Of a stretch of 64,000 nt of DNA, positions 17,539 through 43,757 are shown in pieces. The notes below the pieces were generated by a model, which made no database searches, had not been told where the DNA came from, and worked only from the letters and a program-made list of their open reading frames with translations. Where the stretch lies: assembly GCF_035083965.1 (NCBI RefSeq), contig NC_089729.1, positions 16,976,964-17,040,963 on the forward strand, given 5' to 3'. The translations under genes were made by a program, and so were the position numbers. The DNA is from Branchiostoma lanceolatum (taxonomy: Eukaryota > Chordata > Leptocardii > Amphioxiformes > Branchiostomatidae). Numbering within the stretch: the stretch's first letter is position 1; each line of letters begins with the position of its first letter.

Positions 17539-17808
17539 TCTAGGCTGGGTTTGTCCCCCCTGTAGCGACTTGCGGACAGAATGTTCTAGCTTGCTGTGCT
17601 CAATGTTCACCCACTTATCGTGGTTAGGTCCCTTTGAAGCTTCGAAACACTGTCAGGTCGTAAGGAATGCACTCAAAAACCGACGAAATGGAAAAGATTT
17701 CAGCATGTGTTGCAACATCCGCCATGACAGTTGACCTCATCTTGACCTCTAGCGCATGCGCACAGGAAATGTTGTGGAAGTTGACGTGACAGCCAGCTGA
17801 TCGGCAAG
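17539..17808. promoter_or_regulatory. Shared archease / GDE1 promoter region
   Basis: 270 bp separate the chosen archease ATG (minus) from the GDE1 ATG (plus). The archease 5' UTR, or part of its coding region, occupies the left part. A bidirectional promoter is inferred from spacing alone. Confidence 0.5.
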
Positions 17809-20800: not shown

Positions 20801-23800
20801 GCCAATTTTTTTTTTTTTTTTCCCTGTCGCTCCGATTTTTTCCTGAAAAAATCTGAGAATCAAGAAATAAAATTGGTGAGGCCTATGTAATGCTTCTCAT
20901 CCATCCAGGTCGAAGTTTAAAGGAGAGAGGATACCCACACTGGAAGAGGTGGTAAAAGAATCCCTGAAGCTAGGCATGGTCATGTACATAGATGTCAAGC
21001 GACTACCAGAGAATGTGAGCACTGTTTACTTTGTATTGTGTGTTTGAATATAATCTCCAGGCAGATCTCCACGGTGCTAGAATCGAACAAGCTAGCCAGA
21101 GAAGCTCCAGTCAGCCAGGGAAGTTGTCAGGCACAGTCGGTTGCAATAAAAACTCCTTCTGCCAGTTGGATAAGGTCTTTGCAACCGTTGGGTCTGCTTA
21201 GAGACTATTTGAATAGAGCTGTATGTTCTATGTAGTTCCTTGTCATATTGTTCATTAAATGCTAAAAATGCTCCCTAAAAACTAACACCTTTTGTGTGCA
21301 TTCAAGAAAAGTATACCACAGCTGTTGAGAATTTTCTTAGACAATTTTTCTGTTGTCTTGAATGTTTGAGAAATTATAAATATCCTCAGGACTGAGAGTC
21401 TGAGATTCTTTCTTACTTTTCAGGGAGTATGAAGGAATAGAAAGCCTAAGTATAACCTGACAACATGCCTTCTTTCTGTTTAGTCGGCAGAGACTCTACT
21501 CAACTTGTTCCAGAAATACCCAGACCTATACAAGTCTGCAGTGATCGTTTCCTTCTTACCAACCGTCATCTACAAGGTCAGGAATAGGGCAGAAATCTGA
21601 ATGTGTGAATTAGTGCTAAAACTGCATGTAGTTCCGAATATTCAAAATATATCAAGTTCTGGCTATAAAAAAAGGACACTGAATTCCCTATATCTTTGTA
21701 ATGGTAACAAATGTTTGGAATGGTAACATTGTAACAGCTTTGCTACAGTGAAACCTGTACAAGTGACCACCTCTAAATACATGTGAGTACCACCTGGCCT
21801 ACATGTATGTGACCACTTTTTGGTGGTCCCTTGGATATTTTGTCACATCGACAGAGCCTGTCTATAGTGACCATCTGTATACATAGACCAGATTTTATCT
21901 GTGAGTGGTCTTTGTGGGCAGTCTTGAATTAAGGAAATGGAATAAGTTAGGTGTTATAACCGGGTGTGTTATGGCCCCATAACACATGGGCAAGGGAGGC
22001 TTCTGATTGGTCGACGCCATCTGGCTATGTGATAATTCGATTTAATGTCTATTTGCACATAGATCCGTTCTGGGGATCCAGACATTGTGACAGCCCTTTC
22101 ATGGAGACCCAGATACTACAGCTACGACAGTGTGGGTGGAGAGCCCAAGTACACCCAGACCTGGAAACACGTCCTGATGAGTTTCTGGGATATTGTGTAT
22201 GAATACGTCCTGCACTACTGGCTGTGGTACATAGAGGGTATCTCAGCTGTCAACATGAACAACCATTGCATATCCAGGTGAGTTATCAAAAAGTTTGGTG
22301 GTGAAAAATTATCAGAACATCCCATAAACTTTGACCCAGTGCTCAGGTCACCTCTTCACCCTGAATTCAAGACACTGCAAATATGCTTCCCTTGTATGAC
22401 TGTACTACAGAACTGTTTCAACCATCTTGAATTACCATTTAGCATCACTCTGCAAAAACCTCACTGTCCCTCCCACTAAAAAATACCCTCATTAAATCAG
22501 GACCCCTATCGCTCCACGTTACCTCGCTTGCAAAAGGGCCCTGATAATCACCGCCGCCAGACATGGTTCCGGCGACGTCGCCAACACTTGCTCATGAATA
22601 ATTGATGAGCTGGCCATATTTGGCAATGAGCAGACTGACGAACTAATCTCCAGACGGAAGTTGCGGACAAGGTCGGTAGGCTTGCTCGGCTTTCGCTGCC
22701 ACTGGGAAGCCCATATAACAGTGGCTCTTCCCTCCGCCTGTCCTTACACTTAGAAATTCCTTCCCTGCCATCAAGCAGTGTCTGTAGGGTGGACTGCTGA
22801 TGCTGACGAAGCCGCTCTAATCCAAACAAGTCTTCCACAGCTGAAGCAAAACTATCGGCTGCCATTTGTTTTGGGTAACCAAAGCAACGATGTAACACGT
22901 AACCTGATTGGTTGATAGCTTCCCAGCGTTCTTTGCGTGTTTGCTTCCGATGAGGGGAAGCAGACCCCTCTGATTGGCTGAAGCTGTTTTGTTGGTAACG
23001 TTGCCAGAACCATGTCTGGTGGCGGTGATTATCAGGGCCCCTTCGCGAGCGAGGTAACATGGAGCGATAGGGGTTCTCAGATTCAATGAGGGTGCTAAAA
23101 AATAAAACCACCACGAAATGAAATGAACTTACAGTAGCCTCCGTTGAAGACACCTTCCGGTATTTTTTCTCATTACTTGCTTCTCAGCAAGCAATAGGAA
23201 GAAAAAAATGTAATGAGAAAACAGTAACTTGAAAAAGAAAACAGCCGGAAGGTGTCTGCTACGGAGGCTAAACTCACAGTATGTTTGTATCAACTTGCTT
23301 GTATGGTAATGATTTTGACTAATTGTGGGAAAATGTCCCCGTGGTCATTTTTGTTAATTGGCTCGGCCTGGCAAGCTCCGCCTCCACCGACAGGTTCCGA
23401 GCAGACCAGCACATGCTCACCCCCCGTCGGCACCTCCGCTCAGACCACTTCCACCCGCTTTTCGGCGGTACTAGTCACATCCCAGAGCGGTCCGCTTTCC
23501 AAAAAGTGGCTAATTTGAGTACTATTAACACCCTCCAGATTAATTTTGGACTTTCTATTGCACTTTGGACTAATGCTTGTAGCCTCTGACAGCTTATACT
23601 TACAGAGATGATATTTTGTGAACAACTTCCTTGCCACTTTATGGATCATAATGACCCCCAGCGGGGGTCGTCACGCGTCGTTGAAAATCGAAAAACCTTC
23701 AGATTTTTCCCGAAAATCTTCAGATTTTATGGAAAATCTTCAGATTGTTTGAGATAACCTTCAGATTGTTTGCAAGAATCTTCAGATTGTTTTGAGATTG

Positions 23801-26800
23801 CTTTCAAAGAACCTTCAGATTGTTTCAAAGAACCTTCAGATTGTTTCGAACAATCTTCAGATTTTTTAATGTGATCTTCAAATTTATGTTTCAACTTCCT
23901 TTAATATTGATTAGTATGATATGAAAATTGATAAGAATGGTTTTATTGTTGTGTGAGTTTTGTACTTTTGATGGGAAAATGGATCTAACCAATCCTGATT
24001 AGCTCCTTTCACTTGCAACTCATGGCTTTTTAGTCGAACAGTTCTTTGTGGGCTTAAACAGAGCGACCTGTCTTTAGATAGCGCGAACTTAGCGAACATT
24101 ATGTAGTTGTTAAACGGAGTTGGCAGAGAAATCCATGTTCTCGGGAACAACAATTTTGATCGGAGCCTCATATCGAACCTGACTGCAATATTTATCCTCG
24201 TTCGCCCCTCAAGCCCTGGATAACAAACGTACCCTTACTATTGTTTTGGTGGTATAATGATGAATACTGCATTTGGATGCAGTTGTCATAATGCCGTGGG
24301 TTTGACACTAGATGAAAATAAAAATCCACTTGAATCAACTGTCAGTTCTACATGTGTATTGTTGACAACCGTACGAATGGTAATAACTCCTCATTATTAT
24401 AATAAATTACCTATGTCAAGTCATGGAATTTTACCGCTTCCGAGACAGCATCGGCTTCCAATGTGATGTGCAATGTAGTTATACATATAAATTTCCATCA
24501 CTGGTTGTGTTACAGGTACTAACTTGTAAATGACAGCAGAAAACAGTCGTGGGTTCAAAATTCAGCTGCTATGTGTATTGCTACTTTGCGGTAGATATTT
24601 GGCTTGTTCATTGTTATTGCAACCATTTGATCAACCTGGGTTATAGGTCTTCAAAGATGTGTTTTATCCATGACATTTTAGTTTTTTTAAGCTTGCATGC
24701 AGTTGATATATCATTATGTGGCAAGAATGCAACTTCTGAAGATGCCTCAGGCCTGGAAATAGTGGGTGCATGTGCACCTGTGTGCACCCAAAATTGGAGC
24801 TGTGCACCTAATTTTTGACTGTGGGTGCACCAGTGCACCTAGATATTTTTGTAGGCTATAAGGTAAGGGTACTATTATATTGTACACTAGTATACGAAGA
24901 ATACAGAAATGTAAGTATCTTGACTTACTTGCCTTTTAGACAGAATAGCTAAAATTACCCTTCGTTGTATTCTACTTGATGTAATTCTAGTTAGCTATAG
25001 AATTACAGGTTGTAGTTCTTAAGAGCGTTAAACTTGGTAATTTTGTTTTGCTGACATTCAACTTTATTTTATGTGGTGCACCCAAAATGTTTTCTGTGCA
25101 CCTAATTTTTTTTTGTCGGGTGCACCAGTGCACCTATTTCCAAAAATGAATTTCGAGCCCTGTGCCTTCTTGTTAAACATTGTGCATGCAATACGAAGCA
25201 GTGTTACATCAAGTCATCTCCAAGCAGATAAAGAGAGTTCTCTCACCAGTGGAAAGACTTGCTGAACCAAGTTATGTTAAACAAGCTGGACCCTACATGT
25301 ATATCTTCTTGGAGATTTATGTTTGCCAGGGTATCACATATAGGGCAAGCATACACGTGTAGATTCAAAATGATATAAAACATGTATGAGTGGAACTTGG
25401 CTGTCACCTCAGTATCCAACTACACAGAAAACAGATGCAGACAAATTACTACCACCTTCAACATTCATGACTGGCACAACCATACAGTAGGTTAGAATAC
25501 ACCTACATTGTAGGTGTAGCTCCTTAAGACACCATGCACAGGATTTGTGTGTTGTTTGCCAAAACTCTATTATGCTTTCCCTACTTTCAGCATTCTATGG
25601 CTCTCCATGTGTCAGCATAGATGGATTCATTCTAATCATAGGCCTAGACAAGACCTAGAAAACATCTCTTCAAGTTGTCTTTGATTGAAAGTAAAATTTC
25701 TTACTCATTTGTTGGTTTCTCATGTTTTGCAGTGGCCATTATTCTGTGTTGAAAGGACAGTAGCTGTTGATATCATCTATTTAGAGAGGTGATGACTTGT
25801 TAATAGCTTTTTAATTGATTGGGAGGAGAAGTCATTTCCCACTACTCCGCCCACTCCATTACTTACTGGACTTGCTAACTGTAGTAGCAGGCACAGCTTG
25901 AAATGATTATTTGCTGCTGACTACAAGATCTGTAAGAGAGATATGGAAACTTTAGAACAGATCATCAGTACGGATATCATCCTAAGGAAATCTTTGAATG
26001 TACAATAAACATTAGGGATATTACAAAGTAGCCCTATAGCACCCTATTACATACACTTGAGCTTCACTGTATAGCGGACTATACCCTGTAGTGTATAGCG
26101 GAGTACCTCGGTCGATTTCTACTATTTTCCCAACGATAGGACAGGGCCTGGTAGAGGCTGTAAATTTGCCCTGTCAAAATGCAAGGAAAACTGTCTAGAT
26201 TTCACACTTTTCTGGGAAGGGTGCCCACAAACCCCTACTTTGCAACCTTTAGTGCTTGCTGTGATGCTATCACCGTACCAATTTGCCTTCTGCACCTAAT
26301 CTCCTACTCTGTAAAAAGTTATGGTGACTACCTGAGTTGTGTTGTCTCAGGCATAGCCTCCTTTGCAAACTTTCTAGTTGCTACTGGCATTTATTTCTAG
26401 GAGAGCGCGGGCAGCAGATAGCATTTCTCCTTCAAAAGAATCTGGCCCCAGCGTGTTATAAATCACGAATCAGTGCTCCCCCCACTCCAAATTTAATGCC
26501 AGCACCACCCAGAAAGCCATCAAATCTCATACTCTCCAAGCAGGAGTCCAGCTCCGGCTGGTGTTTAATGTGTTTTGGAGAGTTTTGGGCGGGCTTTATA
26601 TTTCATCCGTTTTCCTGATATCACCCAGTCAAAATAGAAAATGTGACAAAAACGCCAGGTAAACATATCAAAAACCAGCCGGAGCCAAACCTACGCATGT
26701 ATTCTTGGAGAGTAGCTATCTCAGATCCTAGTCTTGCCTGGTCTTCCCATCTGGGAGGAACCCCTGCTGAAATCATTATTGACACAAGACAGTAAAGAGA

Positions 26801-29800
26801 GAGTAGAGCTGCCATCCAAACAGACATCCAGCAAACTATTTGCAATGTTTTTATGCAATTGTGAGTTAATAGTGCCAATGATGATGATGAGTTAAGTGCC
26901 AATGACTTTAAAAAACTAGTTCTATAATGTATATGTACCAAGGAATATACTGCACATGAAAAGAATGGGCTCTTTCCTAGGGGTAGGAAGATATGATCAG
27001 CTTGGATGACTAATTAGTTACAGGACTTCCTCCCCTGGGCATTCCCAGGCCAAGAGTTTCCTTGTTACCACCAGCCACCAGCTTGTGGAATCAAGGATCC
27101 TTCAATGGTGGAATCTAGGAGCTGGGGCAGGGCCATTCAAGGAACTCTGCCTGGGCTTTTCAGGATCTTTCAGCCCTTTGCCTGGGCTTTTCAGGATCAT
27201 GACAGATCTGTACCAACTTCATGTACAAAAAAATGAATTGAGATAAGCAGTGATCTCAAAAGGTAAATTTGTATTGATGAGAAGGTTTGTTTTTTCAAGC
27301 ATGATAAATTCAAACCGTCTTGAGGAAGGCAGCGCCTGTTGTGGACTGGTCTATTTTCTTCCGCTGTGCTCGTGCATTAGCTCCTTCCAATGTCGATCTA
27401 GTTGAGATTTGAACTGGTTTTGCTGGAGACTACACTCTCTGGTAGAGAGTGCCAAATGTTTAAGGTCAAACAGTATCATTTACAAATCCACCAGACAATT
27501 TGGTGATCATCATGTGTTGGTGGCAAGAAGTTTTGAAATTAAGAAATGATCTACCCGTATGTGCTCTTGAACATTTAGCAAGAGATAGAAATGAAAACAA
27601 AGGGACAGAAGGATGTGCATTCACACCCTGAGACTTTACTGAATGAAATATTCTTCTTACACAGCTTTCAAAGCTTTCGGTATAGCCTGGATGCCAGACC
27701 CCCAATCTCCAAAATATCTATCCCACGGTCTGGCATTCAGGCTGAGCCAGGCCTGGGCTGAGCTGAGTTTCAGCAGGGCCTCTTCATGGGCTGTTTATGC
27801 AAGAGGTACACAGATGGTCTCTTGAGACTAGACTCCCAAAGAGGAGATCTGATCATGATAATAAGCCCAAGCCCACCAACACCAGAGAGTAGAGACCACA
27901 GGACCAAGCTGAAGCTAGCCCTCGATTGGGCCTTCGATTCACAGCCTTCGTTTCAGCCCTCGATTCGATTTTGCCGCCGATTCAGCCTTCGATAAGAGGG
28001 AATAGACAGAACATAGCAACCTATTCAGTTACCGATTCGAAAAACCTAGAATCTAGGCCAGCTCTCTTACAACGAACACAAAAGGCAATACAAGGCTCAA
28101 CTAGTACCAAACAAGGAGATATTTACTTGCAAATAATGTCGGAAAGGACATAATATCACGAAATCGGCATAAAATAATAGTGACAACTGACAAAGGACAC
28201 TGGCCCTCGATTCGGCCGTCGATGGGATTTTATCTAGATGTGGCCCATGAACTTGAAATAGTAATTAGGATACGTTGAGATCTAGAGTACTTTATGCAAG
28301 TATCTAATTCAACTGGCCGGATTGGATGAACGAGCCACAGGGGGTCTCATCAAGCCCCGGTGAAACTAGCCCTCGATTCAGGCATCGACTTGCCTGGGAA
28401 AGAATGGCTTGCTGGACGGCTTGTAGCGCTTTCTGCTGTTTAGCTAAATGTGGTACATGAATTTGAAATAGTAATTAGGATACATTAGGATCTAAAATAC
28501 TTTATGGCGCATGGCCGGATTTGATGTACGAGCCACAGGGGGTCTCATCAAGCCCCGGTGAAGCTAGCCCTCGATTCGGGCATCGACTTGCCTGGGAAAG
28601 AAAGGCTTGCTGGACGGCTTGTAGCGCTTTCTGCTCTTTATCTTAATGTGGACCATGAATTTGAAATAGTAATTAGGATACATTAGGATCTAAAATACTT
28701 TATGGCGCATGGCCGGATTTGATGTACGAGCCACAGGGAGTCTCATCAAGCCCCGGTGAAGCTAGCCCTCGTTTCGGGCATCGGCTTGCCTGGGAAAGAA
28801 AGGCTTGCTGGACGGCTTGTAGCGCTTTCTGCTGTTTAGCTAAATGTGGCCCATGAACTTGACATAGTAATTAGGATACATTAGGATCTAAAGTACTTTA
28901 TGCAAGTATCAAATTCAACTGGCCGGATTGGATGAACGAGCCACAGGGGGTCTCATCAAGCCCTTGTGAAGCTAGCCCTCGCCGATTCGGGCATCGACTT
29001 GCCTGGGAAAGAAAGGCTTGCTGGATGGCTTGTAGCGCTTTCTGCTGTTTAGCTAAATGTGGTACATGAATTTGAAATAGTAATTAGGATACATTAGGAT
29101 CTAAAATACTTTATGGCGCATGGCCGGATATTATGTACGAGCCACAGGGGGTCTCATCAAGCCCCGGTGAAGCTAGCCCTCGTTTCGGGCATCGGCTTGC
29201 CTGGGAAAGAAAGGCTTGCTGGACGGCTTGTAGCGATTTCTGCTGTTTATCTAAATGTGGCCCATGAACTTGACATAATAATTAGGATACGTTGAGATCT
29301 AGTGTACTTTATGCCAGTATCAAATTCAACTGGCCGGATTGGATGAACAAGCCACAGGGGGTCTCATCAAGCCCCGGTGAAGCTAGCCCTCGATTCGGGC
29401 ATCGACTTGCCTGGGAAAGAAAGGCTTGCTGGATGGCTTGTAGCGCTTTCTGCTGTTTAGCTAAATGTGGTACATGAATTTGAAATAGTAATTAGGATAC
29501 ATTAGGATCTAAAATACTTTATGGCGCATGGCCGGATTTGATGTACGAGCCACAGGGGGTCTCATCAAGCCCCGGTGAAGCTAGCCCTCGTTTCGGGCAT
29601 CGGCTTGCCTGGGAAAGAAAGGCTTGCTGGACGGCTTGTAGCGATTTCTGCTGTTTATCTAAATGTGGCCCATGAACTTGACATAATAATTAGAATACGT
29701 TGAGATCTAGTGTACTTTATGCCAGTATCAAATTCAACTGGCCGGATTGGATGAACAAGCCACAGGGGGTCTCATCAAGCCCCGGTGAAGCTAGCCCTCG

Positions 29801-32800
29801 ATTCGGGCATCGACTTGCCTGGGAAAGAAAGGCTTGCTGGATGGCTTGTAGCGCTTTCTGCTGTTTAGCTAAATGTGGTACATGAATTTGAAATAGTAAT
29901 TAGGATACATTAGGATCTAAAATACTTTATGGCGCATGGCCGGATTTGATGTACGAGCCACAGGGGGTCTTATCAAGCCCCGGTGAAGCTAGCCCTCGTT
30001 TCGGGCATCGACTTGCCTGGGAAAGAAAGGCTTGCTGGACGGCTTGTAGCGATTTCTGCTGTTTAGCTAAATGTTGCCCATGAATTTGAAATAGTAATTA
30101 GGATACATTAGGATCTAAAATACTTTATGGCGCATGGCCGGATTTGATGTACGAGCCACAGGGGGTCTAATCAAGCCCCGGTGAAGCTAGCCCTCGTTTC
30201 GGGCATCGACTTGCCTGGGAAAGAAAGGCTTGCTGGACGGCTTGTAGCGCTTTCTGCTGTTTAGCTAAATGTTGCCCATGAATTTGAAATAGTAATTAGC
30301 ATACATTAGGATCTAAAGTACTTTATGCCAGTATCAAATTCAACTGGCAGGATTGGATGAACGAGCCACAGGGGGTCTCATCAAGCCCCGGTGAAGCTAG
30401 CCCTCGATTCGGGCATCGACCTGCCTGGGAAAGAAAGGCTTGCTGGATGGCTTGTAGCGCTTTCTGCTGTTTAGCTAAATGTTGCCCATGAATTTGAAAT
30501 AGTAATTAGGATACATTAGGATCTAAAATACTTTATGGCGCATGGCCGGATTTGATGTACGAGCCACAGGGGGTCTCATCAAGCCCCGGTGAAGCTAGCC
30601 CTCGTTTCGGGCATCGGCTTGCCTGGGAAAGAAAGGCTTGCTGGACGGCTTGTAGCGATTTCTGCTGTTTATCTAAATGTGGCCCATGAACTTGACATAA
30701 TAATTAGGATACGTTGAGATCTAGTGTACTTGATGCCAGTATCAAATTCAACTGGCCGGATTTGATGAACAAGCCACAGGGGGTCTCATCAAGCCCCGGT
30801 GAAGCTAGCCCTCGATTCGGGCATCGACTTGCCTGGGAAAGAAAGGCTTGCTGGATGGCTTGTAGCGCTTTCTGCTGTTTAGCTAAATGTGGTACATGAA
30901 TTTGAAATAGTAATTAGGATACATTAGGATCTAAAATACTTTATGGCGCATGGCCGGATTTGATGTACGAGCCACAGGGGGTCTCATCAAGCCCCGGTGA
31001 AGCTAGCCCTCGTTTCGGGCATCGGCTTGCCTGGGAAAGAAAGGCTTGCTGGACGGCTTGTAGCGATTTCTGCTGTTTATCTAAATGTGGCCCATGAACT
31101 TGACATAATAATTAGGATACGTTGAGATCTAGTGTACTTTATGCCAGTATCAAATTCAACTGGCCGGATTTGATGAACAAGCCACAGGGGGTCTCATCAA
31201 GCCCCGGTGAAGCTAGCCCTCGATTCGGGCATCGACTTGCCTGGGAAAGAAAGGCTTGCTGGATGGCTTGTAGCGCTTTCTGCTGTTTAGCTAAATGTGG
31301 TACATGAATTTGAAATAGTAATTAGGATACATTAGGATCTAAAATACTTTATGGCGCATGGCCGGATTTGATGTACGAGCCACAGGGGGTCTCATCAAGC
31401 CCCGGTGAAGCTTAAGCCCTCGATTCGGGCATCGACTTGCCTGGGAAAGAAAGGCTTGCTGGACGGCTTGTAGCGCTTTCTGCTCTTTATCTTAATGTGG
31501 ACCATGAATTTGAAATAGTAATTAGGATACATTAGGATCTAGAGTACTTTATGCAAGTATCAAATTCAACTGGCCGGATTGGATGAACGAGCCACAGGGG
31601 GTCTCATCAAGCCCCGGTGAAGCTAGCCCTCGATTCGGGCATCGACTTGCCTGGGAAAAAAGGCTTGCTGGACGGCTTGTAGCGATTTCTGCTGTTTATC
31701 TAAATGTTGCCCATGAATTTGAAATAGTAATTAGGATACATTAGGATCTAAAATACTTTATGGCGCATGGCCGGATTTGATGTACGAGCCACAGGGGGTC
31801 TAATCAAGCCCCGGTGAAGCTAGCCCTCGTTTCGGGCATCGACTTGCCTGGGAAAGAAAGGCTTGCTGGACAGCTTGTAGCGCTTTCTGCTGTTTAGCTT
31901 AATGTTGCCCATGAATTTGAAATAGTAATTAGGATACATTAGGATCTAAAGTACTTTATGCAAGTATCAAATTCAACTGGCCGGATTGGATGAACGAGCC
32001 ACAGGGGGTCTCATCAAGCCCTTGTGAAGCTAGCCCTCGCCGATTCGGGCATCGACTTGCCTGGGAAAGAAAGGCTTGCTGGATGGCTTGTAGCGCTTTC
32101 TGCTGTTTAGCTAAATGTGGTACATGAATTTGAAATAGTAATTAGGATACATTAGGATCTAAAATACTTTATGGCGCATGGCCGGATTTGATGTACGAGC
32201 CACAGGGGGTCTCATCAAGCCCCGGTGAAGCTAGCCCTCGTTTCGGGCATCGGCTTGCCTGGGAAAGAAAGGCTTGCTGGACGGCTTGTAGCGATTTCTG
32301 CTGTTTAGCTAAATGTGGCCCATGAACTTGACATAATAATTAGGATACGTTGAGATCTAGTGTACTTTATGCCAGTATCAAATTCAACTGGCCGGATTTG
32401 ATGAACAAGCCACAGGGGGTCTCATCAAGCCCCGGTGAAGCTAGCCCTCGATTCGGGCATCGACTTGCCTGGGAAAGAAAGGCTTGCTGGATGGCTTGTA
32501 GCGCTTTCTGCTGTTTAGCTAAATGTGGTACATGAATTTGAAATAGTAATTAGGATACATTAGGATCTAAAATACTTTATGGCGCATGGCCGGATTTGAT
32601 GTACGAGCCACATTTAGCTAAACAGCAGAAAGCGCTACAAGCCGTCCAGCAAGCCTTTTTTCCCAGGCAAGTCGATGCCCGAATCGAGGGCTAGCTTCAC
32701 CGGGGCTTGATGAGACCCCCAGTTGCTCGTACATCAAATCCGGCCATGCGCCATAAAGTATTTTAGATCCTAATGTATCCTAATTACTATTTCAAATTCA

Positions 32801-35800
32801 TGGGCAACATTTAGCTAAACAGCAGAAAGCGCTACAAGCCGTCCAGCAAGCCTTTTTCCCCAGGCAGGTCGATGCCCGAATCGAGGGCTAGCTTCACCGG
32901 GGCTTGATGAGACCCCCTGTGGCTCGTTCATCAAATCCGGCCAGTTGAATTTGATACTTGCATAAAGTACTTTAGATCCTAATGTATCCTAATTACTATT
33001 TCAAATTCATGGGCAACATTTAGCTAAACAGCAGAAATCGCTACAAGCCGTCCAGCAAGCCTTTTTTCCCAGGCAAGCCGATGCCCAAAACGAGGGCTAG
33101 CTTCACCGGGGCTTGATGAGACCCCCTGTGGCTCGTACATCAAATCCGGCCATGCGCCATAAAGTATTTTAGATGCTAATGTATCCTAATTACTATTTCA
33201 AATTCATGTACCACATTTAGCTAAACAGCAGAAAGCGCTACAAGCCATCCAGCAAGCCTTTCTGTCCCAGGCAAGTCGATGCCCGAATCGAGGGCTAGCT
33301 TCACAAGGGCTTGATGAGACCCCCTGTGGCTCGTTCATCAAATCCTGCCAGTTGAATTTGATACTTGCATAAAGTACTTTAGATCCTAATGTATCCTAAT
33401 TACTATTTCAAATTCATGGGCAACATTTAGCTAAACAGCAGAAAGCGCTACAAGCCGTCCAGCAAGCCTTTCTTTCCCAGGCAAGTCGATGCCCGAATCG
33501 AGGGCTAGCTTCACCGGGGCTTGATTAGACCCCCTGTGGCTCGTACATCAAATCCGGCCATGCGCCATAAAGTATTTTAGATCCTAATGTATCCTAATTA
33601 CTATTTCAAATTCATGGGCAACATTTAGATAAACAGCAGAAATCGCTACAAGCCGTCCAGCAAGCCTTTTTTCCCAGGCAAGTCGATGCCCGAATCGAGG
33701 GCTAGCTTCACCGGGGCTTGATGAGACCCCCTGTGGCTCGTTCATCCAATCCGGCCAGTTGAATTTGATACTTGCATAAAGTATTTTAGATCCTAATGTA
33801 TCCTAATTACTATTTCAAATTCATGGTCCACATTAAGATAAACAGCAGAAAGCGCTACAAGCCGTCCAGCAAGCCTTTCTTTCCCAGGCAAGCCGATGCC
33901 CGAAACGAGGGCTAGCTTCACCGGGGCTTGATGAGACCCCCTGTGGCTCGTACATAATATCCGGCCATGCGCCATAAAGTATTTTAGATCCTAATGTATC
34001 CTAATTACTATTTCAAATTCATGTACCACATTTAGCTAAACAGCAGAAAGCGCTACAAGCCATCCAGCAAGCCTTTCTTTCCCAGGCAAGTCGATGCCCG
34101 AATCGAGGGCTAGCTTCACAAGGGCTTGATGAGACCCCCTGGGCTCGTTCATCAAATCCTGCCAGTTGAATTTGATACTTGCATAAAGTACTTAAGATCC
34201 TAATGTATCCTAATTATTATTTCAAATTCATGGGCAACATTTAGCTAAACAGCAGAAAGCGCTACAAGCCGTCCAGCAAGCCTTTTTTCCCAGGCAAGTC
34301 GATGCCCGAATCGAGGGCTAGCTTCACCGGGGCTTGATGAGACCCCCTGTGGCTCGTTCATCAAATCCGGCCAGTTGAATTTGATACTTGCATAAAGTAT
34401 TTTAGATCCTAATGTATCCTAATTACTATTTCAAATTCATGGGCAACATTTAGCTAAACAGCAGAAATCGCTACAAGCCGTCCAGCAAGCCTTTTTCCCC
34501 AGGCAAGTCTATGCCCGAATCGAGGGCTAGCTTCACCGGGGCTTGATGAGACCCCCTGTGGCTCGTTCATCAAATCCGGCCAGTTGAATTTGATACTTGC
34601 ATAAAGTACTCTAGATCCTAATGTATCCCAGTTACTATTTCAAATTCATGGGCCACATTTAGATAAACAGCAGAAATCGCTACAAGCCGTCCAGCAAGCC
34701 TTTCTTTCCCAGGCAAGCCGATGCCCGAAACGAGGGCTAGCTTCACCGGGGCTTGATGAGACCCCCTGTGGCTCGTACATCAAATCCGGCCATGCGCCAT
34801 AAAGTATTTTAGATGCTAATGTATCCTAATTACTATTTCAAATTCATGTACCACATTTAGCTAAACAGCAGAAAGCGCTACAAGCCATCCAGCAAGCCTT
34901 TCTTTCCCAGGCAAGTCGATGCCCGAATCGAGGGCTAGCTTCACAAGGGCTTGATGAGACCCCCTGTGGCTCGTTCATCAAATCCTGCCAGTTGAATTTG
35001 ATACTTGCATAAAGTACTTTAGATCCTAATGTATCCTAATTACTATTTCAAATTCATGGGCAACATTTAGCTAAACAGCAGAAAGCGCTACAAGCCGTCC
35101 AGCAAGCCTTTCTTTCCCAGGCAAGTCGATGCCCGAATCGAGGGCTAGCTTCACCGGGGCTTGATTAGACCCCCTGTGGCTCGTACATCAAATCCGGCCA
35201 TGCGCCATAAAGTATTTTAGATCCTAATGTATCCTAATTACTATTTCAAATTCATGGGCAACATTTAGATAAACAGCAGAAATCGCTACAAGCCGTCCAG
35301 CAAGCCTTTTTTCCCAGGCAAGTCGATGCCCGAATCGAGGGCTAGCTTCACCGGGGCTTGATGAGACCCCCTGTGGCTCGTTCATCCAATCCGGCCAGTT
35401 GAATTTGATACTTGCATAAAGTACTCTAGATCCTAATGTATCCTAATTACTATTTCAAATTCATGGTCCACATTAAGATAAAGAGCAGAAAGCGCTACAA
35501 GCCGTCCAGCAAGCCTTTCTTTCCCAGGCAAGTCGATGCCCGAATCGAGGGCTAGCTTCACCGGGGCTTGATGAGACCCCCTGTGGCTCGTACATCAAAT
35601 CCGGCCATGCGCCATGAAGTATTTTAGATCCTAATGTATCCTAATTACTATTTCAAATTCATGTACCACATTTAGCTAAACAGCAGAAAGCGCTACAAGC
35701 CGTCCAGCAAGCCATTCTTTCCCAGGCAAGTCGATGCCTGAATCGAGGGCTAGCTTCACCGGGGCTTGATGAGACCCCCTGTGGCTCGTTCATCCAATCC

Positions 35801-38800
35801 GGCCAGTTGAATTAGATACTTGCATAAAGTACTCTAGATCTCAACGTATCCTAATTACTATTTCAAGTTCATGGGCCACATCTAGATAAAATCCCATCGA
35901 CGGCCGAATCGAGGGCCAGTGTCCTTTGTCAGTTGTCACTATCATTTTATGCCGATTTCGTGATATTATGTCCTTTCCGACATTATTTGCAAGTAAATAT
36001 CTCCTTGTTTGGTACTAGTTGAGCCTTGTATTGCCTTTTGTGTTCTTTGTAAGAGAGCTGGCCTAGATTCTAGGTTTTTCGAATCGGTAACTGAATAGGT
36101 TGCTATGTTCTGTCTATTCCCTCTTATCGAAGGCTGAATCGGCGGCAAAATCGAATCGAGGGCTGAAACGAAGGCTGTGAATCGAAGGCCCAATCGAGGG
36201 CTAGCTTCAGCTTGGTACCACAGGCAGTGCCTGGGCAGTGCTGACAACAGTACATCTGGGATCAATCAGCCACCAGTTTATAGACTTGAAAATATAGCCT
36301 CTACCAGGCCCGTCCTGTCGTTGGGAAAATAGTAGAAATCGACCAAGGTACTCCGCTATACAGGGTAGTCCGCTATACAGTGAAGCTCAATCGATACTTG
36401 AACTTCACTCAAGTTCACTGTATAGCGGACTACCCTGTATATCAGAGTACCTCGGCCGATTTCTACTATTTTCCCAACGATAGGACGGGGCCTGGTAGAG
36501 GCTATTGAAAATTGTCCAGTACTGAAGAATAACCAAATTTACCAGTCTGAGAAGTTGGGCAGAGAATTGGTTTTGCTAGCTTAAGTTGACACAACTGTTG
36601 ATAAATCCTTTGAAATGGTATTATATTTATATTCAACCAATTCTGAGTCATACCAAAGACTTTGTAAAGATGGTACATACTTGTGAAAGAGTATGGAAGT
36701 TATACACACTTCACTGCCAGTGGACTAGCCCCCTGCTACAGTGATTGCACAACAGTGTGGCCCAGGGCTATGAAACGGAGATGGGCACCGCCCTATACAT
36801 CAATAATGGTGTGGGAGGATTTAAACAAAAAATTACATATCTACAATTCTTCTTTGGATCCACCGGTCTATAAAGTTTATATATAAGGTCTATATAATAT
36901 AGTGTGCCCTGATGCTACAATCCTTTTTTGGCCAAGGACATACAGTCCTAATGGTTGGATAAGGCAAACATTTCCTAGCTTTAAAGTAAAAGAAGAAGAA
37001 AAATCCTTAGCCTCTACCAGGCTCCGTCCGATCGCTCGGAAAATAGTAGTAATCAGCCAAATAGAGTGAATAGTATGCCAGGGGTACAGTGAAGCTCAAT
37101 AGGGGACTACCTTGTATAGCGGACTACCCCTGACACTCTATTTAATTATTTGGCCTATTTCAACTATTTTCCCAGCGATTGGATGGAGCCTGGTAGAGGC
37201 TAAGAAATCCTGGCGATGGTGTTAGAATTGCATAGACCTGTGTCATCCCAGTTAGCTTACATGTACCTCAGTCTGCAAAACAGTCTGAGGAAAATTCATT
37301 ACGCTTTATCATTAGCTATTTATTAATAGTGTAATGTGGCTTTGTTACGGCTCAAATATTTTTAGCCAAGCACGTTTTGGTTCCAGGGTCACCCCCACTC
37401 GTGTTGGGCTCTTTTACATGCAAAGTTTGATGCCCAAAAGCTCCTTTACTACAACAAGGGTGCAGGCTTTATGTACCCCTCCAATGCAGTCTCCTTCGGA
37501 ATGCTGATATGATACACTGTACTAGCATACTACACCATCTACATGTACCATGTCTACTGTATGGCTCCCATAGTTGCTCCAAGGTCACAGGTTTAAAATC
37601 ATTGATTTGTTGGCCTCCTTGCTGGCTAACACTAAATCTCTACTAGTAGTATAAGGGTACAGGTGACGCTGTCATATATAAAGGACCATTAGAGAGACGC
37701 ATATATGCGTGCCATGTGGAAAGCAATATGTCAGACCCTACATTTGCTTGAAGATCAGCTGACACCAACCAAGCTGGTTAGAGCAAATATGGACAGGACT
37801 GTACCCAAACTACCATCTGTGTACCCAGAAGTAAGCTGGGGGTAACACATCTTTGCTCATACAGTACAAAGGAAGCAGAAATTTTGTCTCTGCATAACGA
37901 TGGGCTTTCTTGACCAACTTTGTCAGACAGGAAAGCCATCTGGGAAGGTGTTTCTCCTTTTCACTATAACCTCCTTGTGTGACCACAATGTATTGTTCCT
38001 AGCTTCCCCCTTTCATAAAGTTGGTATAGTCCTGGAGGCAAATGGTTTGTCTTCGAATTCTCCCCAGGGAGGCCTGCTCTCAGCTTTTACTGAAACCTGA
38101 GTGAGTCACTGAGTGTGAATGCCTGCATTTCATTCTCTGGGCTTGCTCTGGCATGGGAGGAGCTATAGCAGGCTGTGATCTGTTCTTAATGATGTGCTAA
38201 TTGGTCATCATCTCTGCAACAGTTGAAAGGAATTATTTGCCAGGAAATTATAGAAAGTTAGGTTCTATTGTAGTTGTAGCGGTACCGAAATGAAATGATA
38301 TGCAGAACTTTCTTGAAAGTTGGAACTGAGTGCAGAATGGTGTAAGTTATCTCAAGTTGGCCCTTCTATGACCACGAAAGAAATGAGACTAATCATGAGG
38401 TCACCTTTTTCCCACCACGTTTACAGACAAGAAGAAAACTACTCTCTTCTTAACAATGACAATGACAATAACATCACACACAGAATGAATGGGACCCAAT
38501 ATTAGTTAGAACTACATGTACAATGTAAGTGTCAGTGGTTAAGACTAGAGTAGTCACATGTTATACTGTTCATCATTGTCTGTCTGTACTTTCCGTGTTA
38601 CATGTACTTGCAATTAAGCCTTTGGCCATGAACTTTCTCTTTAGTCATCATCATAACAATATACCAGTGTTCTCGCCAGGCCTTTTCAGCATAGGGGCCC
38701 CCTATGCTGTGATTTGGACCCCCTATGCTGTGTTTCAACCAGCATAGGGGTGTTTCTTTCAGGGACAAACTTTGTGACCCTTCATAAATCTTATAAAAAG

Positions 38801-41800
38801 TTCATATTTGGCTTTAGAATGAGGCTGTGACAGAGGAAAAACTCTACTTCACAAAATTTATCCCTCAAAATGCATGAAATAATGTTTCATTGGGTCATGA
38901 ATTTACAAATTTTCCGGGGGAACATGCCGGACTCCCTACTCTGGTCATGTCTTCAGCACTCCACGTGTGACTTGCACCGCTAAAGTTGGCCTTCTGTACC
39001 TGACCCCTATGCTGTGAAAAAATTCTGGTGAGAACACTGATATACCTATCAACCCCATCATCTAGCCCAAACTCTAGGAACTAACAAGGACGACACTCGG
39101 GCTACCCATCATCTTCCTTGCATATCATAACCAACTAGCTTGAGTGTCATTTTGTATCAGTTCCAGGCTCTACCCTTTCCAGGCTCTACCCTTCACCAAG
39201 CAGTCTGAGATCACTGCCATTCAAGTGTCTGGAATAAATGTATCTGTCCAGATTCTGGCCTAGCATGCTGATTGGTCCCTTCAAAGCTCCACGGGAAGCC
39301 TTGTCCTTGTCACTCAGCTTAACGACTTTCTCCACATGGTATCTCTGTAGGGACCACATCTTACTAGGGACCACACTTCTCAGAAATGGCCGAAAGAAAT
39401 GACCAAAAACATGGAGTTGATTTAATGTCATACATAGACAATGAAATAGAGTTTTCTTCAGATCTTTGTAAAATCGTCATGATAACACTTTCTATATACC
39501 AAAATGCAGGTACTACAGCCTTGTCGGTAAATAAGGTCTTTCTGGGATGGGGTGATCCCTGCTGAGATAGCATATGGAGCTCTGACAGAAGGGACCAATC
39601 AGCGTGCTAGAAAAGAATATGAATGAACTAGACAACTCGAAATAGGATTTCTCTCAACATCTCTCAGCCAAAATGATGATGATGATCCCTGAGAAGATTG
39701 AACAGCAACAAATTTTTGGGTTCTCAGCACTCAGATTAAAGAACAAAATATTGAGGACCATGTTTAGGCCTTCAGAGCACTCAGTTTTATTCAAGCAGTT
39801 TTTTTCTGCCTGTCCTCTGCTTCTGATGATGTCTGTCTGCTATATTTTTGTCCCCTTTCAATGTCCACAAATCAAGTAACCGGTGTGGTCAAAACACTAA
39901 AAAAATGATTGTGTTAGCTTTCCTTTTTGGACTGTGTTTGTTTTGTTCAATCAACCACGGCCCCTGGGGAGCCAGGCCTTAATGAATGTCATAGTCCTAC
40001 AATCATAGGTTCCCCTCCCTTTCAATTAAAAAGCTATCAACAAATCATCTCTGTCAAGTTTTGCTGGACACAACATACAGTAATGGCAGTATCACATGCA
40101 GTGCCGTGCACTGACTAACATTTATGTGGCTCCAGATTTAGAACTAAGAAACTTTTAGAATGCCCGATCATTCATTTCATTATCAATGCTTACCAATACT
40201 TTATTTGAGTTTATGTTCCTCACTGTCACTGTGTTTAAAGCTGTTTTTCGCTACAACTAACTTTAAAATAGCTATGATACATCCTTGCTGAGAAGTATAT
40301 ATTATAATATTACAATATTGCACCGCACAATCTTTTATTTCTTTTTGAAGTTAAAAAATTTTTCTAAGTCATCCTCTAAAACTGTAACAAACAGAGTAAC
40401 AGAGCAACGTTAACGTTGTATTGTAACATTACACAGTCAAGTTCATTTTAATTCAGACTAGGGATTTTAAGGCTTCAAGTTCAAATTTATACAGCCCTAC
40501 CGTACTAGAAGTTTGATTACATTGTATATTATTTTAGACAACTTCAACCACCCTAACATTGCCACTGACAGAAGTTACCATGACTGTATCTGTATCTGTA
40601 TAGCCAGCTTCCCAGGCACGCGGCGCGGCAGCAGCTGGTTATATTAAACTTTTGAACATATGACTGCAATCGTTCTTTGAGGCTATGCAGTGAAGGTGTT
40701 CCTACAGCATCTGATGACAACGAGTTCCATTCTACTAATCGTTCTCAGGAAATACGAATTTTTGAACACATCAATCCTTGGTTGATAACTCTGGTACTAA
40801 AAGGCATGGCTATTTCTTGTCCTTCCACTCCTTCATGAACAGAATGAAGGAGTGGAATGACGACAGCTAACTTCTGCCTCTTTTATCCTACCCTGGCTAC
40901 TATCAAAAGCTACAACATCAAGTGTGTTACTTCTGTCAACCTCGCCACCTGCCACCATATAATGTCCACTGGCAGAAGTTAGCATGATGTCACCTAACTT
41001 CTGCCAACTTCTTCCACCTGCCAAAGATACCCCAAAAATAGTTACTCATTGACAAGTAAGTGGATAAAATTTTGAAACAGTCAGACGTTTCAGACAGTAT
41101 CCACTGTCTTTCATCAGTGTCTTTCCTCCAAATAGATATGTTAATGAAGTAAAGACAATTTCAGATTGTTCAATAGAATAGTAAGTTAAGGTTGTATGCT
41201 AATGAATCAATTAGCTCATGTTGTTTTAGGAGCTAATGTCCCTAACCAAATCTAGGTACTCATCTACACCTAAGTGAAGTGAGTGAAGTCGTGTTAAGTG
41301 CCTTTTCCAAGGACACAGCATTGGGGCAGATCAGTAGTTTTGAACTCGGGACCTGTCAGTTCTGGGCGTAACACCCCACACAGTGCCTAAACTTTATTGC
41401 CAGTGGGCAGTTCATTCCATCCTGGTGTTCATTCCACTCCTTCACGAAATGTGGAAGTCCCACAAACACTTGTAAAAGAAAATGACGAAAATAGCCCTGT
41501 AGCCTGTGATACGATTCTAAGTCATGTTCGCTGTAGTGTCTGCACTATTTAATAAAAGACAGGTCGCTCTGTTTAAGCCCACAAAGAACTGTTCGACTAA
41601 AAAGCCATGAGTTGCAAGTGAAAGGAGCTAATCAGGATTGGTTAGATCCATTTTCCCATCAAAAGTACAAAACTCACACAACAATAAAACCATTCTTATC
41701 AATTTTCATATCATACTAATCAATATTAAGGGAAGTTGAAACATGAATTTGAAGATCACATTAAAAAATCTGAAGATTGTTCGAAACAATCTGAAGGTTC

Positions 41801-42373
41801 TTTGAAACGATCTGAAGGTTCTTTGAAACAATCTGAAGGTTCTTTGAAACCAATCTCAAAACAATCTGAAGATTCTTGCAAACAATCTGAAGGCTATCTC
41901 AAACAATCTGAAGATTTTCCATAAAATCTGAAGATTTTCAGGAAAAATCTGAAGGTTTTTCGATTTTCAACGACGCGTGACGACCCCCGCTGGGGGTCAT
42001 TATGATCCATAAAGTGGCAAGGAAGTTGTTCACACAATATCAACTCTGTAACTATAAGCTGTCAGAGGCTACAAGCATTAGTCCAAAGTGCAATAGAAAG
42101 TCCAAAATTAATCTGGAGGGTGTTAATTGCTTTGCTGACGACTTTTCTCCACTCACACTTATGACTGTAGTTGAATATTATGTTTCAAGCTGCTTTTTGT
42201 CTTTAATAACAATTGTTTTGTCTTTATTTTTTTTCAGAGAGTATGTGAAGTTTTGGTCTGACAGAGGCTGTCGGATGCTGGTATGGACAGTTAATGACCA
42301 GGACGAGAAGAACTACTTTGCCAACACTCTTGATGTCATTTATATGACTGATGACCTACCTCCACAATCATAA
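17809..42373 (+). CDS. GDE1: Glycerophosphodiester phosphodiesterase 1
   Basis: GDE1 is a membrane-anchored metal-dependent phosphodiesterase that hydrolyses glycerophospho-alcohols and N-acyl glycerophosphoethanolamines. Six exons (17809-18057, 19249-19424, 20909-21014, 21484-21576, 22063-22277, 42238-42373) join in frame to 324 residues (human 331). Residues 5-40 form an N-terminal hydrophobic segment. The catalytic core shows VVGHRGAS with the catalytic His near residue 66, APENTIAAFR, VEFDLEYTKDGVPVLLHDDT (metal-binding Glu/Asp and the second His near 108) and TVDRTTDGTG. Further on are YIDVK, VIVSFLPTVIYK, ALSWRPRYYSYD and the C-terminal LVWTVNDQDEKNYF. Exon 5 carries a hydrophobic stretch (MSFWDIVYEYVLHYWLWYI). 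The last intron, 22278-42237, is 19,960 bp because of nested transposons; every other intron is under 1.5 kb. It is divergent from archease. Confidence 0.97.
18245..18825 (+). repeat. tRNA-derived repeat with internal 79-bp tandem copies
   Basis: A tRNA-like head (GCCTTGTGGTTAGCGCG, then GGGTTCTAATCCCGG) occurs twice, at about 18307-18378 and 18718-18795. Between them are three copies of a ~79-bp unit with GTACTCGCCCCTTTGGGTT and CGGCCCTGTGAGTAACGATC. It lies in GDE1 intron 1. Confidence 0.7.
20365..20575. repeat. 104-bp tandem duplication
   Basis: Two nearly identical copies of a ~104-bp unit (starting TCGCTATTCTCATTCAGAAA) in GDE1 intron 2. Confidence 0.85.
21746..21935. mobile_element. 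Decayed CAGTCAAACCTGT-type MITE
   Basis: Shares GAAACCTGTACAAGTGACCACC, here written in parts, and the internal GTGACCACTTTTTGGTGGTC with 15512-15675. The ends are degraded. Confidence 0.55.
22484..23094. mobile_element. hAT-like MITE, 611 bp, 8-bp target duplication
   Basis: Ends ACCCTCATTAAATCAGG and the inverse, with arms containing CGCTCCACGTTACCTCGC and CCCTGATAATCACCGCC. Flanked by exact 8-bp CTAAAAAA duplications. It shares the segment around GGGAAGCTATCAACCAATCA with 8191-8561 but has extra interior sequence. Confidence 0.9.
23135..23270. mobile_element. TAGCC...GGCTA MITE, 136 bp, 9-bp target duplication
   Basis: Inverted ends TAGCCTCCGT...ACGGAGGCTA with GACACCTTCCGG arms. Flanks are AACTTACAG and AACTCACAG (8 of 9 match). 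Nine-base duplications are typical of Mutator-like transposases. Confidence 0.8.
23529..24074 (+). repeat. Left long inverted terminus of the 18.6-kb unit
   Basis: About 546 bp. Subterminal repeats of CTTCAGATTGTTT spaced about 21 bp occupy 23690-23890, a layout like multiple transposase-binding sites. Confidence 0.85.
24748..25162. mobile_element. hAT-like MITE with GTGCACC clusters
   Basis: Ends CAGGCCTGGAAATAG and TTCGAGCCCTG (loosely inverted), each followed inward by inverted clusters of GGTGCACC/GTGCACCTA. Target duplication unclear. Confidence 0.5.
26040..26158. mobile_element. Half copy of a TAGCCTCTACCAGG MITE
   Basis: Matches one arm of 36295-36504 (GTATAGCGGACTA, ACTATTTTCCCAACGATAGG, GCCTGGTAGAGGCT). 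The other arm is missing. Confidence 0.65.
28235..32608 (+). repeat. Left arm array, ~204-bp monomers in 408-bp dimers
   Basis: Monomers alternate between type A (GGCGCATGGCCGGATTTGAT, GTTTCGGGCATCGGCTTGCC) and type B (TATCAAATTCAACTGGCCGG, GATTCGGGCATCGACTTGCC). Identical A/B dimers recur at 408-bp spacing (for example 29292 to 29700 and 30714 to 31122). Confidence 0.95.
32609..35895 (-). repeat. Right arm array, inverted
   Basis: The same monomers in reverse, about 16 copies with A/B alternation. The junction with the left arm is at a shared CCACA; about 80 nt (32529-32608) would form the hairpin loop. Confidence 0.95.
36295..36504. mobile_element. TAGCC...GGCTA MITE, 210 bp
   Basis: Inverted ends TAGCCTCTACCAGGCCCGTC...GGCCTGGTAGAGGCTA with AAAATAGTAGAAATCG arms. 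Flanks TTGAAAATA and TTGAAAATT (8 of 9 match). Confidence 0.85.
36645..36822 (+). repeat. Partial SINE, family A
   Basis: Body only (GAGTCATACCAAAGACTTT to GTGTGGGAGGATTT); the tRNA-like head is missing. Confidence 0.7.
37007..37202. mobile_element. TAGCC...GGCTA MITE, 196 bp
   Basis: Same family as 36295-36504. Flanks AAAAATCCT and AGAAATCCT (8 of 9 match). Confidence 0.85.
37310..37500 (-). repeat. Partial SINE, family B, reversed
   Basis: The reverse strand matches the 3' part of 16048-16432 (AAAAGAGCCCAACACGAGT, GGTGACCC, GGCTAAAAAT). Confidence 0.55.
38665..39039. mobile_element. CAGTGTTCTC-type MITE
   Basis: Inverted ends CAGTGTTCTCGCCAGG and TCTGGTGAGAACACTG. Flanked by ATATAC on both sides. 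A second, oppositely oriented copy lies at 42546-42884. Confidence 0.75.
40585..40830 (+). repeat. Dispersed repeat, uninterrupted copy
   Basis: Paralogue of the repeat split by the MITE at 9054-9466; serves as an empty-site reference. Confidence 0.8.
41035..41250 (-). repeat. Dispersed repeat carrying a hammerhead-like motif
   Basis: Inverted relative of 7620-7880. On the minus strand, 41122 to 41076 reads CTGATGA, stem AGACAGT/ACTGTCT with GGAT loop, GAAACGTC. Confidence 0.65.
41258..41395 (-). repeat. Partial SINE, family C
   Basis: The reverse strand matches the middle of 59752-60110 (GGAAAAGGCACTTAACACGA, ATGAGTACCTAG). Confidence 0.6.
41555..42122 (-). repeat. Right long inverted terminus of the 18.6-kb unit
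   Basis: About 568 bp, the inverse of 23529-24074 with small indels. It ends 115 bp before the last GDE1 exon. Confidence 0.85.
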
Positions 42374-43639: not shown

Positions 43640-43757
43640 CTTGTATACATCCACACATTTGAAATTTTGCTGGTTTTGCCATGGCAATAACATGTAGCCA
43701 AGTGAGTTGCAAAGGGTAACGATGTCTAAAAAGCTTTGACAGAAATTGGTGACACGA

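Follow-up and report, generated by a model that had tools for sequence, protein, structure and literature searches.

Foldback elements with repeat-bearing termini

Sea urchin TU elements are foldback elements that carry short tandem repeats in their outer domain and show 8-bp duplications. They are mentioned in the report of Dias et al. (2014, PMC4079207) on Tetris of Drosophila virilis, for which unequal exchange was proposed and the Mutator superfamily suggested. One complete Tetris copy is described with three repeats in a terminal inverted repeat (TIR) and four in the other allele, and its authors considered that a few repeats may aid transposition and that larger arrays may disrupt it (PMC4079207). 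Mutator-like elements (MULEs) are assigned a duplication range of 8–11 bp (PMC6446971), and in arthropods the majority of MULE ends reportedly carry G or C in their first three bases (PMC13359780). The active Aedes aegypti MULE Muta1, termed a type 2 Foldback, carries nine 12-bp subterminal repeats with duplications of 8–9 bp (PMC5225508), and Tm1 of Meloidogyne is a Mutator/Phantom foldback (PMC3169594). In Galileo, a member of the P superfamily, the tandem repeats of the TIR hold sites bound by the THAP domain of its transposase (PMC3688188).

The locus described here lies in a window of 64,000 nt of Branchiostoma lanceolatum, to which all positions refer. It is probably a foldback DNA transposon of the non-autonomous kind, inserted with a target duplication of 8 bp and perhaps mobilized by a MULE transposase; its satellite monomer probably grew inside the inverted repeat. 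The closest known system is Tetris.

Element boundaries and arms

The element proper spans 27903–36216 (8,314 bp), and both of its ends begin with the perfect inverted sequence ACCAAGCTGAAGCTAGCCCTCGATTGGG. Directly outside these ends stand the two copies of ACCACAGG (27895–27902 and 36217–36224), an exact 8-bp target-site duplication as found with foldback-type TIR transposons; the chance of such an identity at two fixed places is 4^-8. The preliminary description of an 8.3-kb fold-back element with satellite arms, flanked by an exact 8-bp duplication over 27895–36224, was correct to the base. Apart from ACCACAGG, the 1-kb flanks are unrelated to each other. Searches for an empty-site paralogue in the window returned only pieces of hairpin repeats from the right flank; several of the window's hairpin repeats we take to be typical amphioxus repeats. 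The window gave no Rfam match at the gathering score and no tRNA, and its Pfam matches are to archease and to a SPRY/SOCS-box open reading frame.

The same description had called the element one giant inverted repeat, and it is indeed a single inverted repeat, but its arms are unequal (4,710 nt on the left and 3,604 nt on the right), together filling the element as very long TIRs do in foldbacks, and the mirror image ends past the outer 0.8 kb. The outermost 802 nt (27903–28704 against 35415–36216) match without gaps at all but 6 positions, and the right arm aligns at 93% with the left arm's outer 3.6 kb; further inward, shared higher-order blocks take the place of simple mirror symmetry. Each arm opens with a terminal domain of 326 bp, located at 27903–28228 on the forward strand and at 35891–36216 on the reverse strand, the two differing at 2 of 326 positions, and the rest of the window contains no significant copy of this domain. 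It is joined to the array by a first, internally shortened repeat (28204–28360, forward, its alignment with the monomer starting at 28229; 35759–35915, reverse, its mirror inside the 802-nt match), such that both arms begin their array in an identical register with an identical shortened repeat. A special single-strand fold of the terminal 418 nt was considered and rejected, as 86 of 100 shuffled sequences fold at least as well. The duplication, the end-to-end inverted termini and the distinct terminal domain give good support to a transposon-type insertion whose inverted repeats are satellite arrays.

Satellite arrays

Behind each terminal domain lies an array of ~198/210-bp monomers (~204 bp). 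Tandem Repeats Finder (TRF) delimits the two arrays at 28229–32612 and 32607–35890, and an anchor-based cut resolves 21 monomers on the left (L01–L21; 28361–32612, forward) and 16 on the right (R01–R16; 32613–35758, reverse), bearing out the counts of about 21 and 16 given earlier, both of which rest on the genome assembly. Monomers are 197–212 bp long, apart from the innermost one of each array, where the arms meet (177 and 87 bp). The TIRs are thus composite, containing ~12-bp units as well as a tandem repeat whose number differs between the arms. These are the only two such arrays in the window. The 37 monomers account for 7,398 of the 8,314 bp, as would be expected if the locus were an ordinary satellite that had undergone an inversion, with no transposon involved; this is scarcely credible against non-satellite termini of 326 bp that match to the last base and carry an 8-bp duplication.

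The arrays adjoin at the centre with no unique loop or middle domain. At their junction (32607–32612) the TRF arrays overlap by 6 bp, and comparison with 15 right-arm counterparts gives a microhomology of 3–6 bp, depending on the right-arm monomer type that was joined; a microhomology of possibly only 3 bp counts against the favoured reading. Inside the arrays, monomers L16–L18 with the first 15 nt of L19 (31415–32039, forward) form a higher-order block that recurs in the right arm as R02–R04 (34929–35553, reverse) and as R10–R12, at 99.2% and 98.4% over 625 nt. Duplications inside single arms measure 954, 926 and 1055 nt (98.2–99.2%), and each arm shows tandem duplications that are absent from the other.

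Long inverted satellite arrays are difficult to assemble and the monomer numbers may be wrong, which raises the question of a chimeric or mirrored read, or of a collapsed or expanded satellite. An artefact of this kind is nevertheless very unlikely in view of the 4,710- and 3,604-nt arms, their different internal order, the non-matching flanks and the target duplication. A mirrored read in particular is disfavoured, since it predicts equal arms and mirrored flanks.

Relationship of the monomer to the element's ends

The window contains 27 copies of the motif CCTCGATTC, all of them within the element, against 0.18 expected from shuffled sequence, which excludes chance. A terminal motif had been thought to recur in every monomer; in its exact form it is present in 23 of 37, the others having CCTCGTTTC (11), CCTCGTTTT (1) or CCTCGCCGATTC (2). 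The longer pair motif, allowing up to 2 substitutions, was found 22 times in the left arm and 17 times in the right. The box of 28 bp in which the monomers resemble the terminus scores 41, where 500 shuffles reach at most 26, and it extends outside the repeated motif (TGAAGCTAG). The remaining ~175 bp of the ~204-bp monomer are unlike the terminal domain, and inward of the outermost 40 bp the likeness comes down to a 13-bp motif match.

Two origins for this partial likeness can be weighed. A pre-existing genomic satellite might have been captured and carried by the transposon, its terminus-like box being coincidental or secondary; such capture of a tandem repeat has been proposed for a MITE (review, PMC12628747), and the ~175 bp unrelated to the terminal domain would fit it. 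Capture seems improbable to us, however, as the 28-bp match includes TGAAGCTAG and lies far above shuffled sequences, and both arrays start in one register with the same shortened repeat. The preliminary description had left undecided whether the satellite was carried in by a transposon or grew inside one; the insertion itself stands, and growth inside the element fits better than a carried-in satellite, because 28 bp of the element's own end are reproduced in the monomers and the tandem duplications are private to each arm. Capture of local flank by the monomer, suggested by CCACAGG preceding both the element's end and the end-like box, was rejected: the score of 30 bp of the left flank is equalled by 24% of 2000 random window pieces, and those of the other three pieces tried are equalled by more than 24% of them.

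The motif may plausibly be an amplified transposase-binding sequence, given that the TIR repeats of Galileo hold THAP-domain sites. Binding at the monomers is to be read as putative, since the likeness to the end is confined to ~28 of ~204 bp and the motif columns vary as much as others in the array. Its conservation does not exceed that of the rest of the monomer (8 of 25 columns variable, with 58% of blocks having as few), and constraint on the motif within the array is accordingly not supported.

Subterminal repeats and proposed superfamily assignment

The outer ~95 bp of the element hold ~12-bp direct repeats, CCYTCGWTTCAG, which a search with up to 2 substitutions placed at 27919–27994 (forward) and, at identical positions in the right arm, at 36125–36200 (reverse). 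Units were counted at 17, 29, 43, 55, 72 and 84 from the end, with an overlapping weak match at 60 excluded. With at most 1 substitution, the outer 100 bp contain 5 matches, compared with a mean of 0.06 and a maximum of 2 in 2000 shuffles. MULE-type ends are proposed because these repeats resemble the ends of animal MULEs and foldbacks such as Muta1 and Tm1. The 8-bp duplication falls within the MULE range. Other superfamilies also give duplications of 7–8 bp, which makes the MULE assignment less certain. The element's end starts with ACC, having G/C at two of three positions, and its first base, A, may count against a MULE.

Like the element, Muta1 and other Aedes aegypti MULEs have 12-bp subterminal tandem repeats and 8–9 bp duplications (PMC5225508). 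Muta1 is described as having a 10-bp imperfect palindrome with its 5th and 6th bases unpaired (PMC5225508), and the same features are seen here in AGCTGAAGCT; the two agree by description, not letter by letter, and the Muta1 palindrome is the terminal motif, whereas AGCTGAAGCT occupies positions 5–14 from the end. Muta1 also differs in its TIR of 145 bp and in encoding its own transposase (PMC5225508).

The TIRs of Tm1 carry tandem ~14-bp units with the core CGATTCAG or CGTTTCAG, both of which are present in each terminus of the element, and they too are unequal in length, with duplications of 8–10 bp (PMC3169594). Tm1 is set apart by its 1–9 units per TIR, by asymmetric terminal motifs and by ends (CGGTTAA, CCTACCC) that differ from the element's, and the available account reports no ~200-bp repeat (PMC3169594). 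Against the 15-letter Tm1 consensus, the element's unit matches at 12 of 12 bp, equalled by 0 of 2000 shuffles (2 of 2000 on repetition) and 0 of 340 other window pieces. The 14-letter M. incognita core gives a score of 11, reached by 6 of 2000 shuffles and 0 of 340 window pieces, and the M. hapla core a score of 8, which is at chance level (248 of 2000 shuffles, 30 of 340 pieces). The likeness between the units is thus partial; it was spotted after the Tm1 paper had been read, and its apparent strength depends on the form of consensus used.

Long TIRs are found in different superfamilies (PMC3573991, PMC3688188), and the element could be a foldback of another one, for instance a Galileo-type member of the P superfamily, with its architecture reached by convergence. 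Subfamily F of Galileo has ~210-bp tandem repeats in long TIRs, differing in number between the TIRs of one copy (PMC3573991), and Galileo's repeats carry transposase-domain sites (PMC3688188). We regard another superfamily as possible but not likely, an 8-bp duplication accompanied by short subterminal repeats of ~12 bp being the layout of animal MULEs, to which the partial Tm1-like core may be added.

Proposed mechanism and wider searches

Under the favoured reading of a MULE-type foldback, a transposase supplied from elsewhere, most likely of the MULE superfamily, would recognize the ~12-bp repeats near each end, pair the ends, and cut and paste the element. The ~204-bp monomer would have been born within the inverted repeat, including a copy of the element's end, and multiplied separately in each arm through replication slippage or unequal exchange. 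The near-identity of the arms in their outer ~0.8 kb may have been maintained by gene conversion, or one arm may recently have been copied onto the other. Joining of the arrays would have removed a former middle domain. Each monomer may provide an extra docking site for the transposase, and the element could seed satellite DNA where it lands. This reading is weakened by the lack of a transposase in the window (the longest stop-free run in the element is 82 codons) and of a second copy in the rest of the window.

More tentatively, and in our view unlikely, the element may transpose with whole higher-order satellite arrays, helped and not hindered by a docking box resembling its end in every monomer; animal MULE foldbacks of different phyla would have the recognition core CG(A/T)TTCAG in common, and satellites of this sort would grow from that unit.

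In public collections, viral contigs gave no match to a 19-mer and one to a 17-mer, and genome contigs gave three matches to an 18-mer, all bacterial. The four matched loci were taken as chance and rejected as relatives, their likeness to the terminus or monomer being limited to 13–28 bp (best of the four, L003: 22 bp, E 5e-6). None of the 13 papers containing CCCTCGATTC in a text search of the literature had a repeat or transposon title.

Comparison with known systems

Tetris resembles the element in having a terminal domain followed by ~220-bp tandem repeats inside its TIRs, in lacking a conserved open reading frame, and in its duplications of 8–10 bp (PMC4079207). Its terminal domain and repeat have a 37-bp stretch in common, compared with 28 bp here, and fibre-FISH showed long Tetris repeat arrays between two terminal domains, as in the element (PMC4079207). 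The Tetris repeats are ~70% AT, whereas the element has a GC content of 46.5%, and the complete Tetris copies sequenced in that account have TIRs of up to 1,735 bp and a middle domain, which the element lacks (PMC4079207). Galileo likewise has long TIRs, with ~210-bp tandem repeats in subfamily F, but it has two or three repeats, a TIR of at most ~1.26 kb in the accounts cited, and a P-type transposase (PMC3688188, PMC3573991).

Unlike in the Tetris copies sequenced in that account, the 21 and 16 monomers are resolved here base by base between both ends, duplication included. A long foldback array can now be read with both matching ends and the exact duplication in place, and the steps of its growth can still be made out from higher-order blocks in which the two arms differ, so that the growth model and the question of amplified transposase sites become directly testable. 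The element is another case of a known kind of foldback, with similar elements in flies, and it has an unusually complete sequence.

Structure of the foldback element

The element occupies 8,314 bp (27903–36216) and has an exact copy of ACCACAGG on either side, at 27895–27902 and 36217–36224, in agreement with the 8-bp duplication given in the preliminary description. Both ends are the identical sequence in opposite orientation, agreeing to the last base, and an ungapped alignment of the outermost 802 nt of each arm shows 6 mismatches, 2 of them within the first 326 nt. Each arm begins with a terminal domain of 326 bp. A single repeat, shortened internally, overlaps the inner end of this domain, and an array of satellite monomers of ~198 and ~210 bp follows; the last monomer, at the centre, is truncated in both arms. 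The earlier reading of one 8.3-kb inverted repeat carrying about 21 and 16 monomers stands with small corrections; the left arm has 21 and the right arm 16, numbers that rest on the assembly. The arrays delimited by Tandem Repeats Finder (28229–32612 and 32607–35890) overlap at the centre by 6 bp, GCCACA, and no unique middle is present between them. The longest stop-free run in any of the six frames was 82 codons. With its duplication, inverted ends and non-coding arms, the element is a non-autonomous TIR transposon with a foldback structure.

One arm is 1.1 kb longer than the other, and their internal order differs as well. The left and right 1-kb flanks do not match each other; a comparison gave just two short hits, 14 and 16 bp long (E 0.43). 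A mirrored-read artefact is very unlikely, as unrelated flanks, unequal arms with different internal order and a target duplication are not expected from it. A sensitive search detected no significant copy of the terminal domain or the monomer elsewhere in the 64-kb window (best E 0.25). The CpG observed/expected ratio is 0.74 in the element (27903–36216) versus 0.51 for the remainder of the window; youth of the element or the presence of CG-bearing motifs may account for the difference.

History of the arms

With monomers numbered from the outside of each arm, L16–L18 of the left arm correspond to R02–R04 of the right at 99.2% over 625 nt, and the next pair along, L19 and R05, are 2 events apart; L16–L18 match R10–R12 at 98.4%. 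A shift of 2,849 bp aligns the inner left array with the outer right array. The left arm also contains internal duplications of 954 nt (98.2%) and 926 nt (99.2%) plus shorter blocks, and the right arm duplications of 1,055 nt (98.8%) and 576 nt (97.6%). From these shared blocks and arm-specific duplications, both arms seem to derive from a single ancestral arm that had about five monomers or more, and to have expanded separately afterwards. Over the outer 0.8 kb the two arms are 99.25% identical, which equals or exceeds, roughly, the identity of the within-arm duplicates, so that in the single copy analysed either the arms and duplications are of similar age or later conversion acted on the outer parts. 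Where the arms meet, the left one ends in GAGCCACA and the right one starts with TTTAG. The 15 right-arm counterparts of this position read GCAACATTTAG (8), ACCACATTTAG (4), TCCACATTAAG (2) and GCCACATTTAG (1), and the microhomology at the join is therefore 3, 5 or 6 bp long according to which monomer took part. A former middle may have been lost here through end joining or template switching.

Neighbouring features

The element is bracketed by inverted, 95% identical copies, ~17.5 kb apart, of a ~570-bp repeat (23524–24075 and 41555–42127) that begins with TTAACACCCTCC and contains a 21-bp minisatellite. Directly to its right lie two members of one family of palindromic hairpin repeats with AGCCTCTACCAGGC ends (36294–36505 and 37006–37204), the first with the 8-bp TTGAAAAT at either end; a further partial copy is found at 26057–26162. 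Another hairpin repeat, at 54380–54535, has TATTCTCCAAG ends and ACAACAGCAT near both of them. Two more near-palindromic repeats are present at 9048–9472, which is 90% self-complementary over 429 columns, and 61748–61935; a simple scan near the ends of both found no common word of 6 bp or more. Other tandem arrays lie at 1–636 (38 bp x 17), 1401–1917 (25 bp x 20), 18387–18624 (77 bp x 3) and 43756–44137 (192 bp x 2). Two minus-strand ORFs were identified, an archease (17053–17652, Pfam E 7e-44) and a Pfam-supported SPRY/SOCS-box protein (47633–48046) which we take to resemble SPSB3. The ORFs mark the window as animal DNA: archease is not confined to animals, but SPRY and SOCS box in one ORF are typical of them.

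The terminus and its relation to the monomer

In the outer ~95 bp of each end, a unit near CCYTCGWTTCAG is directly repeated, with copies that start at distances of 17, 29, 43, 55, 72 and 84 bp (up to 2 substitutions; a weak overlapping hit at 60 was excluded). Allowing 1 substitution, CCYTCGWTT matches 5 times in the outer 100 bp; 2000 mononucleotide shuffles gave 0.06 matches on average and never more than 2. Within the element 47 such matches are directed from end to centre and 0 oppositely; the remaining 55.7 kb of the window has 14 on both strands. AGCTGAAGCT, at end positions 5–14, is an imperfect palindrome of 10 bp in which the 5th and 6th bases are unpaired. No special fold was found for the element's first 418 nt, as 86 of 100 shuffles fold equally well or better.

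Terminus and monomer consensus have 28 bp in common, TGAAGCTAGCCCTCGATT(C/G)GG(C/G)C(A/T)TCGA, with a score of 41 against a maximum of 26 among 500 mononucleotide shuffles. Because this match reaches past the repeated motif (TGAAGCTAG), the monomer box appears to reproduce the element's real end rather than the motif only; the rest of the monomer does not resemble the terminal domain. The motif is paired in the monomer with the same 12-bp spacing as at the terminus, and when up to 2 substitutions are allowed the left arm has 22 such pairs and the right arm 17. By analogy with Galileo, whose TIR tandem repeats can contain transposase sites (PMC3688188), and with plant MULEs (Mutator-like elements) with tandem TIRs, which reportedly amplify well (PMC3310237), the monomers are putative extra docking sites and would serve the transposase as such. 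Counting against a binding role, the motif is imperfect and its columns are only averagely variable. The exact CCTCGATTC, previously thought to be in every monomer, is found in 23 of 37, the others having CCTCGTTTC (11), CCTCGTTTT (1) or CCTCGCCGATTC (2), and lower variability around the motif was not seen (8 of 25 columns vary, 58% of blocks being equal or lower, computed without the short R16). The preliminary interpretation is partly supported: the duplication and inverted ends bear out a transposon insertion, and amplified transposase-binding sequence is plausible by the analogies above.

Classification and comparison with known elements

The element probably belongs to the MULE superfamily. 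Its 8-bp duplication falls within the MULE range of 8–11 bp (PMC6446971). Among the MULE families of Aedes aegypti with long TIRs, 10 of 12 have short subterminal tandem repeats; Muta1, with nine 12-bp subterminal units and 8–9 bp duplications, parallels the short subterminal repeats and 8 bp seen here (PMC5225508). A possible point against MULE is that the end begins with A (its first three bases are ACC), whereas most arthropod MULE ends are reported to carry G/C at these three positions (PMC13359780). A partial likeness to Tm1, a Mutator/Phantom foldback of root-knot nematodes, speaks for MULE. The core of the Tm1 tandem unit is CGATTCAG in one nematode species and CGTTTCAG in a second (PMC3169594), and both cores occur once in the terminus of either arm, at 47 and 76 bp. 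The 15-letter Tm1 consensus matches the terminus at 12/12 bp, which was equalled by 0/2000 dinucleotide shuffles in one run, 2/2000 in another and none of 340 further window pieces of 326 bp, the best of which scored 11. With the 14-letter core of M. incognita the score is 11 (reached by 6/2000 shuffles and 0/340 pieces), and the M. hapla core scores 8, at chance level (248/2000 and 30/340). Since this motif was met through reading and is the sole published motif compared, the partial likeness to Tm1 is a lead and no more.

No earlier report of this element was found in the open-access literature. The closest known case is Tetris of D. virilis (PMC4079207), in which a terminal domain is followed by ~220-bp TIR repeats, with 37 bp common to both compared with 28 bp here; its duplications are 8–10 bp and its repeats have turned into a satellite. 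Fibre-FISH of Tetris showed two terminal domains flanking long repeat arrays (PMC4079207), and long arrays within a foldback were therefore already known. What is new is such an array at base level, in an element with both ends and its duplication; judged against the open-access literature, its sequence family is new as well, and so is the fact that it lacks a middle domain.
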